Source: Trichaptum fuscoviolaceum
Lineage: Eukaryota > Basidiomycota > Agaricomycetes > Hymenochaetales > Trichaptaceae
Length of the DNA: 64,000 nt
Direction of reading: 5' to 3'
Assembly: GCA_910574455.1 (NCBI GenBank)
Contig: CAJSYZ010000004.1
Location: 248,001-312,000, forward strand
Shown: positions 57,423 to 62,829 of the stretch, piece after piece
How the letters are laid out: each line of letters begins with the position of its first letter
Numbering within the stretch: position 1 is the first letter of the stretch
Translations under genes and position numbers: made by a program
The notes under the pieces: generated by a model
Database searches by the model: none
Told to the model about the DNA's origin: nothing
What the model saw: the letters and a program-made list of their open reading frames with translations, nothing else

Positions 57423-57445
57423 CAATATCTCACCTGCTCTGCCCA

Positions 57446-57510
57446 GCCAACGCTATCTCTAGAGATAGGCTCCTAGGCCCCAGGAGCCTATCTCTAGAGA
57501 TAGCGTTGGC
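57446..57510. repeat. Perfect hairpin in the left terminal repeat of the 5.3-kb element
   Basis: GCCAACGCTATCTCTAGAGA continues to AGGCTCCT, and the same sequence follows inverted after a short GC loop. The arms are about 29 bp. Confidence 0.9.
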
Positions 57511-58084
57511 ACTATTTCTCTAAGCTAGCGGTAATCCGAGCATTAATTTGACTCGGGTGACCGTAGCCACCAGTGGTCACCGGTAACGTGGTGACGCGTT
57601 CAAGTTACCGGTGGCCACGGTTACTGAAGTGACCGAGGCCGGTGCCTGGCAGGACCCTTGATATCGGAGCCAGGCCCCGCACGCTCTCGCCGCTGTTCGC
57701 AGTGAGCAAGAGTCTGTGCTTGCTGTGCACAACAGCGAGCAAAGCTATCTCACTCAATTTTGATGCAATCAAGCTGTTTTTTTCACCCTTGTATATTAGA
57801 TTTCTTGTACGGTATTTTTGCTTATTTTTCTTCATTTCTCAAACTCATTTTGAGGCAGAATTAAATAGGAATAAATTATATTGCTATAAATCATTATTTT
57901 ACACACAGTATGCACTTGACTATCGGCGCGAGAGTGGTGCGGGTTTATGGCAGGTGTGCGACCATTCACGCAAGCAGATTTGCCATGTATCCTCTTGGTC
58001 AAGCGGTCATTGCTTTGGCAACAAGAGCAAGTCACCATGGCCCGGGTTCTGAGGAACAACAAGTGAGGGATCAGCCCTGTTGAC

Positions 58085-59480
58085 AGGACATAGGCCGAGT
58101 CATTTGCAAATGATGGCTGCAAGATTGCCAGATCCAGACCAAGAAATCTACACGAAAAGCCAAGGAAATTTAACTATAGCCAACATGGAAAGAGAGCACT
58201 TACGGTCTTAGCATCTGTGTCAACCCTGCGCACGATCTCGCCAGGCTCCCAGTCCCAGAAGACAACAAAACCACTTCCACAAGTACCTAGGAGAGGGCCA
58301 CCATGCAGTCCTTCAACTGGCCACGATCCAGCACCCTTCATTGCTAGAATACTCCTCTCCTGGAAGTCCTTGTACACCCGCACCCTCGTCCGCCCCTCCA
58401 GCACAGTGTACGTGTCGAGTCTGTTGCCCATGCGAAGGAAGGGCCGCTGCCGGACGCCTTGTTCGCCATGCCAGCACAGTGTAGTTGATATACTCTCCTT
58501 CTCCGACCACAGTGATAAAGCGCAGAAATTTCAGTCGTACCGAGTTCTTGCACAGACAGTGGTATGCCTTGTCCTTCAGGCATCTCGTCTTCCGCAGCGG
58601 CTTGGAGGTCGACAGGCAAGACTTCTGTGTTGCGGGTGTACACCAGTTCGCCTGATGGGTCCATGCTGTGGGAAGGCTCGTCACGGCCAAGTTTGACCAT
58701 GAATACACATATGTCGTCTCCTACGGCAACCTCATTCCCTGCGGTCGGATGGCAATGCACCATGCACGTTCAAGAGCATTGTACTTCCAGGCGGTATATG
58801 CCCGAGTTCCAGATCTCAATCGTACCATCCTTCGAACCGCCGACGACCAAGGGAAGACCAGAAGACTGGGGTGGAATATGGCAAATGAGACGTTGTTGGT
58901 GTGTCCCTCTATCGTCTGTACACTACTTTTGCTGAGGTAGTCCCAGATATTGATAGTTCGGTTGTCACCGCTCGTGACAAGATACAGCTTGTCATCGGAA
59001 TAGAATTCAACATAGTTTATGCCGCCCTTCTCATGTACCTCGAGGGTAAAATTCGGTGTCAAGGAGCCGAGCGACAACATCTTCACGGTGCAACCAAGAC
59101 AAGAGGAGGCGAAGGTGTTGGTGTCCTTGGCATTGAATAAAAGGTTCATGATGAGTGCGTGTGTCCTTCTACCTTCAGAGATAATTAGACGAAGTCAAAT
59201 TTTGAAGCAGTGGATGTACGCACCTGAATACACGTCCACCGTTTGTCCCAGTCCTAAGCCTTGATTGTCATATCATCGCAGCCCGTCAGCACAATGCTAA
59301 GTTTTGGGTGGACAACAAGGAACTGAATGCAGTCAGGATGGGCCTCGAATGCGGTCACTTTCTCGTGAGTGTTGTGATTGAAGACCCGTAGCAGGAAATC
59401 GTCCAAATTGGTGATGAACCAGTAACTTCGAGAGATGAATTGCATGCATCGGACAGGAACTTCAGCGATTTCGAAGGATT
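58085..59480 (-). pseudogene. Captured fragment of the coatomer beta' subunit gene (WD40 COPI component)
   Basis: Read on the minus strand, the fragment begins IAEVPVRCMQFISRSYW and follows the WD40 propeller of coatomer beta': RVFNHNTHEKVTAFEAHPD, VLTGCDDMTIKA, FNAKDTNTFASSCL, GGINYVEFYSDDKLYLVTSG, NIWDYLSKSSVQTIEGHTNN, ALERAWC, VKLGRDEPSHSMDPSG, YTRNTEVLPVDLQ, IPLSVQELGTTEI, MKGAGSWPVEGLHGG and GFVVFWDWEPGEIVRR. The Trp after TIKA is a stop (TAG), and several frameshifts occur (for example near 59130, 58850 and 58480). Typical introns remain (GTGCGT...CTGAAG after TCIQ; GTAAGT...GTGTAG before SWSGSGNLAAI), so the copy was made from DNA, not mRNA. It lacks the start and the C-terminal solenoid. 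Confidence 0.9.
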
Positions 59481-60738
59481 AGCGTGTCCGTGGTGTCCGT
59501 CGACAAAGTGTATCCACAGTGCTACCTAGTAGACGTGTCTGTGGTATCTGTCAAGGCTATACAAGCATCTATAGTATATTATTAGCATGATGTAAATGAT
59601 AGCATAAAAAAAGATAACTTACAACATTAATTTGATGCCTGGAGGCCATCCGTGATGGACACGGACGACGTTGAACGCAGAAAAGACGACGTCCACGCGC
59701 GTTCAACATCGTCCGGAAGTTGCCGGAAGTTGCAATCAAAGCATCTCCGAGCACATTTTGTGCCCAGGAACACTTCAGCAGCACGTATAATACTCAGGCA
59801 CACTTTGTTATACACAACTTCTATATGATACACATTGCATCTGATTTTATTGGTATTTATTGTTTAGTCTGATATGATTTTGTGAAGCAAACATTGATTC
59901 TACAAGTGATCATTTCACTGTTTTTGGAATAGAATATTTATTTGATCTCGTAAATTTGTGGTCTCTTTTGCATTCAAGAGTACTAGTAATATGGAAGCAA
60001 ATTCAGAAAGAATTACAGTTTCAGGTGAGCTAGAATATAGTGATCTCGATTTCGTGCACTCGAATGCATGAGATCAAGCTAAACTCACCTGAAACCCACG
60101 GAACTCAACTACATTCGAGCACTGACAACAAGTCCAGTTAGTGGATTTTTGTCAAAATTTCTAAAAAGGTACTTATATATCTCTTCTTGAATGTTACATA
60201 TCTTTCAGAATTTATTAGTGAGGGTAATGCATATCTATTCAGTGAAGAACATGCAATGTTCATGATTTTATGCAAAAAGTACCAGTTTTGAGCAATGTTT
60301 AGATATTATCCGAGTACCACAGAGCTCAAACACTATGTTAAATTTAAGGCATGCTCTAACATAGCTATACAATATCTCCAGAAAGTTTCAGAGTGATCAG
60401 AGCATGCATAATTGTTCAACAAATGAAATACATCTGCTGTAACATGCATATATGTTGCACATCAGCACTTGTAGCTTATTTGCAAGCCTATTTTATATTT
60501 TATCTCCTTACAATTTCGTATTTACACTCCCTTGTATATATTACAGAGTACTACCGTATGTGCCTGATACGAAGTGCAATAGGAGAACGGGCAAACAATA
60601 TGTTTGTTATGTGTTCAGAAACGAAAAAAGTAAAACATACCTAATTAGGAGTGCGTTCCCACGTTTGGCGACGACGCGTGGCCTCGTCGCCGTCGTCGTT
60701 TGAGCCTTGCTCACTGTTTGACACCCCTCCTCCACCCC

Positions 60739-60895
60739 ATGAAAGAGCTTCGTATGAACCAGCTCATTGAAGGTATGTTTTAAAAAGTTTATCTACTCTT
60801 AAATGTACTAATATCCATCTTTTGTAGGCGCTATAGTGGCCGATAGGCTCAATCGTGCACCCAAGGTGCTGGAACAACTCATTCAACGACGATGA
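60739..60895 (+). other. Small spliced open frame inside the 5.3-kb element
   Basis: ATG at 60739, a GTATGT donor at 60773 and a TTTTGTAG acceptor near 60828 give a 33-residue frame (MKELRMNQLIEG, then AIVADRLNRAP...) that ends TGA at 60893-60895 and overlaps the next ATG. It may be a third captured gene piece or chance. I do not recognise it. Confidence 0.3.
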
Positions 60896-61770
60896 GTTTG
60901 CACACAATGCACACACCTACCCACTCTCTCCTTCCCCTCCGCCGTGTCAGCTCACTGTTGAAACAGACAGATATCAATGAATCAACAACCAAGAACTACG
61001 AAACTACGCAGACACCTGCAACTTCTTCGATAAGAAAGCAGTTGGTTGAAACGACCCGCACGTCGCTACACAGAACCGTCCGCGGTGACACAGACGACAT
61101 TGAGGAACAACAACCCGAAGAAGAACCGTGCTCTCTGTCGCTATCACCCCATGGTCCTCAACCCTCCCTTCGCCTCCTGTTCTCTCTCATCTTACGAAGG
61201 GATGTGTACACACTTCTCCTGCCCACTGCTGGGAAGTTCGTCAAGGCCGGCGGTGTCGCCCCTTCATGACACTCGTTATCGGACAAGTCTTTGATGCCTT
61301 TGATTGGTTCCCCCTTTCGGACGCAACATCTCAGGACAAGTCTGCGTTCAGACATGATGTTGGTATCACAGCTGCAGAACTGGTCGCCTTCGCTGCCGGT
61401 GCCTTTACACTCGGAAGTATCACGAGTGCGTACAGGCGAGCGAAACGTTATGCGCCTTCGCAAGAAAGTCTACGAAGCTGCGACAACATGCAAGTTGGAA
61501 TGGTTTGACACGAAGATGGGTGCTGAAGATGCTGTGATGACTACTGAGGGCGATGGCCCTGTCGGTGCTGGCGGTCTTATGGCAGAGTTTGCAAAGTACG
61601 TCTGATTCAAATGTTTTTATTAGTTTTTTTTTCTCTAATCTGTTCACAAGGGTTCGGACGATGTTCGTACCGTATCGTCTCTTGCTTCAGGCATGCTTTT
61701 GCATTACCTCGTAACTTGCATTGCATGGCTGGAGTTCCAGGCTGTCCTGGGCTCTCACTCCCCTTTCCAA
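60892..61770 (+). pseudogene. Captured fragment of a Ste6-like ABC transporter gene
   Basis: The frame begins MSLHTMHTPTHSLLPLRR and gives the N-terminal region and first transmembrane part of a basidiomycete Ste6/ABCB-type exporter (pheromone-export relatives): SLRLLFSLILRRDVYTLLLP, GGVAP, a one-base break, then MTLVIGQVFDAFDWFPLSD, GITAAELVAFAAGAFTLGSI and TSA. A second break follows with loss of the expected LWIW, then TGERNVMRLRKKVYEA, LEWFDTKMGAEDAV, EGDGPVGAGGLMAEFAK, an intron (GTACGT...CACAAG), VRTVSSLASGMLLHYLVTC and IAWLEFQAV. Similarity ends at about 61770. No nucleotide-binding domain is present. Frameshifts and truncation make it non-functional as a transporter. Confidence 0.85.
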
Positions 61771-61779
61771 TTCCTGGCT

Positions 61780-62110
61780 GAGGCCACTGGGACGCAGTCT
61801 GAGGACAGTGTCCATCCGCCTTCCCCCATCTAGCTGCGGCCGCCTGGGACGCATCTGCAGATGTGTCCCTTCCCCTCCCCTCTGGCTGAGGCCATCTCGG
61901 ACACAGTCTTAGGACAGTGTCCATCCCCCTTCCCTCTCTGGCTGAGGCCATCCAGGATGCCGTCCGTGGACAGTGTCCTTCCCTACCTCCTGGCTGCGGC
62001 CACCCGGGACACATCTGCGGAAGTGTCCCTTCCCTCCCCCTTCTCTGGTTGAGGCCACCCCGGATGCAGTCTGTTGACAGCATCCTTCCCTTCCCTGGCT
62101 GATACAGAGG
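61780..62110. repeat. Minisatellite-like block, roughly 60-75-bp units
   Basis: Degenerate units contain CTGGCTGAGGCCA (or CTGGCTGCGGCCA), then GGGACACATCTGC- or GGACACAGTC-like sequence and GACAGTGTCC, followed by CCTTCCC tracts. They repeat about five times within the 5.3-kb element. The 158-codon antisense frame across it is a by-product of the repeats. Confidence 0.7.
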
Positions 62111-62661
62111 CCTTTGTTGGCAAGGTCCCCATGGCTTGCATCACAGGCTCTGGTAACTGAGCTGAGCCAATTTGCATGCATGGCTTTTTTGTGCATATGG
62201 CTTTTGCTGTGATTCTTCCCCTCCTCCCCCTCTCCTTTCTCTTTATTTTAATAGTAGATTAATAGCTACAGCATGTAGCACTGTTTATTGAAATAAAATA
62301 AAATAATTTTCCACAGCAAATTTTAATGTGGTGGGCTGACTGCTGTTGGCATTTCCGAAATCAGGATAAGGCTATAATATTATACAAGAAATCTAAGTTA
62401 CAGTGGTGAAGAAACTAAAGAAATTGAGTGCGAAATGAGCAAGCAAGCTCCGTTCGCAGATGCGCACAGCGAGCAAGGGTACTTGCTCACCGCGCGCGGT
62501 GGTGAAGCAAGACCCTGAGAGTCACGCGAAGCAAGCGCGTGGCATCAAGGGTCTAGGCACCGGGCCCCGGTAACGTGGTGACGCGTTACCAGTGGCCACC
62601 GGTGGCTATGGTCACCCGAGTCAAATTAATGCTCGGATTACCGCTAGCTTAGAGAAATAGT

Positions 62662-62726
62662 GCCAACGCTATCTCTAGAGATAGGCTCCTGGGGCCCAGG
62701 AGCCTATCTCTAGAGATAGCGTTGGC
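62662..62726. repeat. Perfect hairpin in the right terminal repeat of the 5.3-kb element
   Basis: Same arms as at 57446-57510 with loop GGGGCCC in place of AGGCCCC. Confidence 0.9.
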
Positions 62727-62829
62727 TGGGCAGAGCAGGTGCAATATCTTCGCTGCTGGCGATGCTTAGAACGAATCCAACGTCCGCTGCGCATTTCAAC
62801 CCAACGGCCTTCACACGTAAATTCTCTGC

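Follow-up and report, generated by a model that had tools for sequence, protein, structure and literature searches.

The 64,000-nucleotide stretch of Trichaptum fuscoviolaceum DNA analysed here (contig CAJSYZ010000004.1, positions 248,001 to 312,000; 'the window') contains, at window positions 57431-62741, a transposon of 5,311 bp that we call E1. E1 is a non-autonomous, gene-fragment-carrying ('Pack'-type) element of the KDZ (Kyakuja-Dileera-Zisupton) superfamily, in which fragments of two host genes flank a non-coding segment, B. Its parts are given below in window coordinates, with strand where one applies; C3 and similar labels denote contigs of the genome, L061 and similar labels individual loci.

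57423..57430, no strand: left target-site duplication, CAATATCT
57431..57588, plus strand: left terminal inverted repeat, 158 bp, 96.8% identical to the right one
57446..57510, no strand: left-end palindrome, 65 bp, near-perfect, element positions 16-80, with a DNA hairpin fold
58084..59481, minus strand: COPB2/Sec27 (coatomer beta') gene fragment with frameshifts and stops, 82% identical to the host gene at C3:4997033-4998458
59173..59223, minus strand: retained COPB2 intron, 51 nt, 45/51 identical to the host gene
59483..60947, no strand: segment B, AT-rich non-coding cargo, also in other KDZ-type families
60948..61760, plus strand: 5' fragment of a STE6-like ABC transporter gene, 83% identical to the C6 host gene (L061)
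61600..61649, plus strand: retained STE6 intron, bounds approximate, from the host-gene alignment
61755..62097, no strand: degenerate, minisatellite-like repeats after the STE6 fragment, spaced ~54-56 bp or multiples (families D1-D6)
62584..62741, minus strand: right terminal inverted repeat
62662..62726, no strand: right-end palindrome, 65 bp
62742..62749, no strand: right target-site duplication, CAATATCT

The outermost ends of E1 are perfect inverted copies (CACCTGCTCTGCCCAGCCAACGC and its reverse complement; opening letters CACCTGCTCTGCCCAGCC...), with termini CACCT..AGGTG, and the inverted ends are collinear for 158 bp. Inward of this the likeness between left and right is only patchy, and the terminal repeats of about 300 bp proposed in an earlier, sequence-only reading of the window are to be shortened accordingly. 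The other structural claims of that reading stand: both copies of an exact 8-bp target duplication were located, the outer ends are perfect, the two terminal repeats are related to each other on alignment, and they enclose degenerate, intron-bearing fragments of two unrelated genes in opposite orientation, which we identify as COPB2 and STE6-like. Known RNA families gave no match in E1 at the gathering threshold.

A family of six copies and its KDZ transposase

Both ends of E1 were searched for in all 12 contigs of the genome (59.1 Mb), and 14/14 candidates were scored for each. They recur in six full-length copies (family F1) and one decayed single end. An exact 8-bp duplication, different at each place, brackets all six full-length copies, which puts the F1 ends beyond chance and rules out E1 as a unique single copy. 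The full-length copies are:

E1, window 57431-62741, 5,311 bp, duplication CAATATCT
E2, C9:701663-717518, 15,856 bp, duplication TCAAACGG
E3, C4:3617194-3622096, 4,903 bp, duplication CATGATAC
E4, C5:5259766-5264662, 4,897 bp, duplication CCGGAACT
E5, C8:3962191-3971888, 9,698 bp, duplication ATGCATTA, KDZ transposase gene
E6, C8:2313566-2329724, 16,159 bp, duplication TACTTGAC

The solo end, E7 (C3:4947921-4948319, L017), is 73-78% identical, has no duplication, and is the remnant of an older F1 copy. The same cargo is present in five of the six full-length copies, and these five insertions with different duplications indicate that the element was mobilised after capture. Against E1, the pieces of E2 show 97.7-99.4% identity and E6 shows 98.9%; E3 and E4 are 98.9% identical to one another, and both are ~86% identical to E1 across most of their length. 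The great length of E2 and E6 is due to nested insertions. Inside E2 lies a gypsy-type long terminal repeat (LTR) retroelement (C9:~702751-712500, L009/L010; type judged by eye from its open reading frames, ORFs) with 471-bp LTRs that are 99.6% identical and a duplication TAAAG. The 10.8-kb element inside E6 (C8:2318751-2329596, L015/L016) has ends CATCACGAAAGT..ACTTTCGTGATG, a 2-bp duplication (AC) and one ORF with KOW-motif matches; it fits the published PlavakaB end pattern (CATCA..TGATG, 2-3 bp) and is Plavaka-like in its ends.

E5 resembles E1 only in ~400 bp at its left end (86%) and ~370 bp at its right end (98%), and encodes a transposase: 2 of the 6 ORF pieces analysed gave matches to PF18758, the KDZ transposase family (4.8e-7 and 2.8e-46), and no non-KDZ family (e.g. 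the zinc-binding CxC domain) was detected at E<=0.01 in the six pieces, which may be too short for such matches. The gene is spread over several frames, and no inner inverted-repeat pair was found in E5 that would mark it as a nested insert. E5 is the only one of the six F1 members with KDZ matches; inside E1-E4 and E6 neither a KDZ nor a hAT match was found, the element nested in E6 having ORFs of its own. Genome-wide, 115 KDZ-domain matches (exon pieces counted) make KDZ a large group in this genome; the hAT-dimerisation domain (PF05699) has 5 matches, none of them in the six F1 members.

Inverted ends of hAT elements are typically short, under ~30 bp, and the 8-bp duplication, while in keeping with hAT, is not specific to it. 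The sequence-only reading had called E1 hAT-like, and a non-autonomous hAT element would agree with that duplication and with the host-type genes that ascomycete hAT elements carry (PMC6710886, PMC3538342); it is contradicted by the KDZ gene of the same-ended E5, by hAT-dimerisation matches that all lie outside F1, and by 158-bp ends with an inner palindrome, and we regard it as extremely improbable. What identifies E1 as KDZ is the combination of a same-ended copy encoding PF18758, an 8-bp duplication, and long inverted ends with CA..TG termini, the last a yardstick drawn from the available parts of two reports on KDZ elements (PMC12810828, PMC12730594), in one of which two Laccaria Kyakuja families have 7-bp duplications and no inverted ends (PMC12730594). 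What identifies it as Pack-type is that source genes were found, that the cargo copy has no transposase, and that spread followed capture. Other parts of the sequence-only reading fared better. The genome-wide search for terminal repeats that it had suggested produced the family described above; E1 is, as it had claimed, a non-autonomous DNA transposon; and E5, with the same ends, is a likely source of the transposase by which E1 would have been mobilised from elsewhere in the genome.

The flanks of E1, joined and used as a query, match diverged paralogues. One match (C4:390529-390820, 67%) was reported across the insertion point; on BLAST re-alignment only the stretch to the right of the site was retained (70%), similarity on the left being weak, and a second paralogue likewise aligned in its right part only (72%). 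The C4 paralogue may be taken as a hint, not proof, of an empty site. Elsewhere in the window, one host ORF had 14 protein matches, mostly from environmental sources, and between 3695 and 45030, 7/12 ORFs of at least 250 aa share a motif like ITEDEINDRSKGDALSKG and form a putative locally expanded family.

The cargo, its host sources and its presence in other families

The host COPB2 gene is L059 on C3 (coatomer beta' match 5e-145); its frames are clean in both exon pieces examined, whereas the COPB2 cargo of E1 contains stops and frameshifts. The best two of 2,899 COPB2 matches are from Sanghuangporus sanghuang (87%) and Coniferiporia weirii (85%), which points to Hymenochaetales. The host STE6-like gene, L061 on C6, matches ABC_membrane (3.4e-32) and ABC_tran (4.7e-26), and both source genes are intact-looking. 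Pfam found nothing in the STE6 ORFs of the window, PDB comparison of one of these ORFs gave no match, and a protein database search with one of them returned a single protein (72% identity, 43% of the query covered); the identity of the STE6 cargo depends on L061. Segment B, 1.46 kb and non-coding, lies between the two fragments. Because introns are kept in both the COPB2 and the STE6 cargo, it was DNA that was copied and not a transcript, which rules out a retro-copied cargo and agrees with the DNA-level capture previously proposed.

A nonsense change from TGG to TAG is present in 4/4 non-host COPB2 copies aligned (E1 and E4 of F1, and L060 and L063, which have no assigned carrier) and absent from the host gene, indicating a single, previously broken ancestor for the non-host copies. 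In COPB2, E1 and E4 differ evenly across codon positions 1/2/3 (0.120/0.090/0.116), with no sign of constraint within F1; differences between the host gene and E1 peak at third positions (0.127/0.090/0.221). The stops, the frameshifts and the flat codon-position differences rule out the COPB2 cargo as a functional gene, and the cargo looks like a passenger. A basidiomycete is expected to have only a couple of genes with the COPA/B second propeller (PF04053), and the 107 matches to it in this genome (exon pieces counted), most of them outside F1, are a warning for annotation.

The cargo search yielded at least 57 matches, a lower bound from scoring 40 of 166 candidates, and family assignment was attempted for the 29 places in which most of segment B is present. 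Nineteen lie between recognised ends: 5 in F1, 12 in F2 and 2 in F3, the last two being further KDZ-type families that carry segment B together with the STE6 fragment. F2 has ends CACCTAAGACTCCC, with repeats of ~373 bp (97.6%), and 8-bp duplications CTAATATT and ATTTTTAT in the two copies examined; F3 has ends CACCTATAATGCCC, with repeats of 372 bp (95%), and 8-bp duplications TCCAAAAC and TATCAGCC, also in two copies. F2 repeats the pattern of F1, in that a KDZ gene lies between its ends in the copy C9:4689699-4698370 (duplication ATTTTTAT), and a KDZ gene on C7 is flanked by F3-related ends (75-78%).

These families differ far more in their ends and transposases than in their cargo. When the outer 185 bp were compared (300 shuffles each), F1 scored 16 against F2 and 18 against F3, within the range that shuffles gave (means 16, maxima 28 and 24). 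The KDZ core of F1 is 67% identical to that of F2 in protein and 65.6% in nucleotides, and ~70% and 64.5%, respectively, to the F3-like core; third codon positions are identical at 46.5% (F2) and 40.8% (F3-like), and silent sites are saturated (silent-site divergence, dS, of 2.2 for F1-F2, and not computable for F1-F3-like). Segment B of F1 is 80.9% identical to that of F2 and 80.5% to that of F3.

A fourth family, with ends CACCTGGGGTACCC that are 77-78% like those of F3 over ~315 bp, carries a C-terminal fragment of HSP70, which Pfam missed and PDB comparison caught (3.7e-19 to PDB HSP70). Of the three copies analysed, one has an exact duplication, CCGCTATC. The HSP70-carrying copy L067 (C3:1295000-1300250) has an extra 0.8-kb stretch; part of this stretch (L067 2352-2663) is 95% identical to L057 1-314 (C9:3936500-3943500), adjoining the L057 element.

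Just inside the ends of all four end types, which are of very different sequence, an imperfect palindrome occupies about the same place (16-80 in F1, 21-75 in F2, 24-72 in F3, 17-79 in the HSP70 family). It passed the threshold in 6/7 ends tested, almost none of 200 shuffles per end doing so, and the F1 palindrome folds as a DNA hairpin at -35.8 kcal/mol (z -11.75). Its presence in the transposase-bearing E5 and C9 copies makes it a feature of KDZ ends and not of cargo-bearing copies alone. Conceivably the hairpin stalls replication or repair synthesis, which then continues on a host gene or on an element of a different family, within a cargo-sharing community of KDZ elements; we consider this unlikely, and were it true, gene capture and cargo exchange would both result from end structure.

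Mechanism and alternative explanations

On the sequences compared, E1 is very probably a non-autonomous cut-and-paste KDZ transposon that carries COPB2 and STE6-like fragments, acquired at the DNA level, around segment B, and whose movement depends in trans on an E5-type KDZ transposase. Host-gene DNA would have been copied into the element by template switching, during repair or replication, on an ectopic template (the host gene or another element), and the product would then have transposed; template switching of this kind has been proposed for animal Pack-TIRs (PMC8277862). E5 or a relative would be the active transposase source, with F1 copies inserting with an 8-bp duplication and spreading after capture. 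Cargo could be exchanged between families by template switching, or through nested insertion if the inner ends were afterwards lost.

How the same cargo came to lie between such different ends can be explained in other ways. The cargo may have been taken up once by an old element and inherited vertically, ends and transposase changing much faster than the interior. The join of B and STE6 is common to several aligned copies, so the composite probably arose once, and some ends do retain likeness: an inner stretch of 49 bp is common to F1 and F2, equally far from the end in both (293-341 and 295-343; 82%, E 2e-9), F2 ends share 76 bp (75%) with those of the HSP70 family, and F3 and HSP70-family ends are 78% alike. 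Plain descent nevertheless predicts that non-coding cargo be the more diverged, and the reverse is seen, segment B being ~80% identical against transposase cores at 64.5-65.6% in nucleotides with saturated silent sites; we judge this account quite unlikely, and cargo passage between KDZ families, which explains the pattern, is probably what occurred. Such passage may have involved insertion of one element into another with subsequent loss of inner ends instead of switching of repair templates. Insertions into F1 copies do occur (the gypsy-type retroelement in E2, the Plavaka-like-ended element in E6), but no obvious foreign-end relics were seen inside E1 or E5, other copies not all having been searched, and this route is a possible but doubtful one. 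That segment B and the STE6 fragment form a mobile unit jumping into KDZ elements would suit the occurrence of B at no fewer than 29 places; its right limit varies, however (e.g. query 2852, 3188, 3253, 3380, 3556), no constant ends were seen among the copies, and 19/29 places fall between F1, F2 or F3 ends, making a mobile unit very unlikely.

The interpretation of E1 as a KDZ element sharing its cargo with other KDZ families must be tempered by several observations. The shared inner stretches just described are points against unrelated ends, and the outer ends of F2 and F3, with a score of 29, exceed their shuffle maximum (27). The 49-bp stretch could be a conserved transposase-binding or promoter site. 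Ten of the 29 segment-B places have no family assignment, one place counted for F2 (C9:4875148-4877871) depends on end matches of 75 and 91 bp, and L057, which has other ends, carries a segment B that falls within those of the F1 copies. The F3-like transposase is that of the C7 copy, which resembles F3 by only 75-78% in its ends and was not followed to its outer limits, and KDZ genes here consist of several exon pieces and may not be intact. In the STE6 cargo, third codon positions still stand out among the differences between E1 and E4 (0.149/0.107/0.198). Of the F2 copies tested for the palindrome, that on C4 fell short of the threshold and that on C9 passed, and 2/3 HSP70-carrying copies lack a matching 8-bp duplication.

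Comparison with known systems

Plants provide the best-known cases of gene-fragment capture by terminal inverted repeat (TIR) transposons; for hAT elements, such cases come from animals and some ascomycetes. Plant Pack-TYPE elements are reportedly non-autonomous TIR elements carrying host sequence, some of them multi-copy. Animal Pack-TIRs are likewise TIR-flanked segments with host sequence, some multi-copy, but belong to other superfamilies (MULE, hAT, TcMariner), and 'Zisupton' is absent from the available portion of that text (PMC8277862). Among fungi, TIR transposons amplify a housekeeping-type gene, histone H3, in Pseudocercospora (PMC6710886) and Pyrenophora (PMC3538342), in the former with an 8-bp duplication (PMC6710886); these are hAT elements of ascomycetes (PMC6710886, PMC3538342), and the Pseudocercospora element took up an intron-less version, from a transcript or retrocopy (PMC6710886), whereas introns are kept here. 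The expectation that gene capture of the present kind would be unusual in fungi is therefore tempered by published histone H3-like genes in ascomycete hAT elements (PMC6710886, PMC3538342); here capture is by a different superfamily, KDZ, in a basidiomycete. Basidiomycete transposons with extra genes are known in the Helitrons of Pleurotus, which differ in being rolling-circle elements whose captured genes are, in the part of the report available, of unknown origin and function (PMC4289320).

Within KDZ, Cryptococcus KDZ1-3 (~9-11 kb; inverted ends of 241, 139 and 169 bp) resemble the elements described here in transposase and long inverted ends, and KDZ1 (~11 kb, 241-bp ends) also in its 8-bp duplications, those of KDZ2 and KDZ3 being 4-8 bp (PMC12810828). 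They differ in that the available part of the report mentions no host-gene fragments (PMC12810828), which here are carried by non-autonomous copies. In the open-access literature, partly covered and not including the original KDZ description, we found no report of KDZ elements with host gene fragments beyond TET/JBP. In the present genome, numerous copies occur together with the source genes and with a partner that bears the transposase, and because the same fragment occurs in families with far more diverged ends and transposases, the genome can be used to time the movement of cargo between families. As far as the accessible text goes, Kojima (2025) describes fungal KDZ elements with a TET/JBP gene that was seemingly passively transferred across transposon families (PMC12730594); these are like the elements studied here in carrying an extra gene and in leading to the same kind of conclusion on transfer between families, and unlike them in that their cargo is a dioxygenase gene, whereas here broken fragments and non-coding DNA are carried by copies without a transposase.

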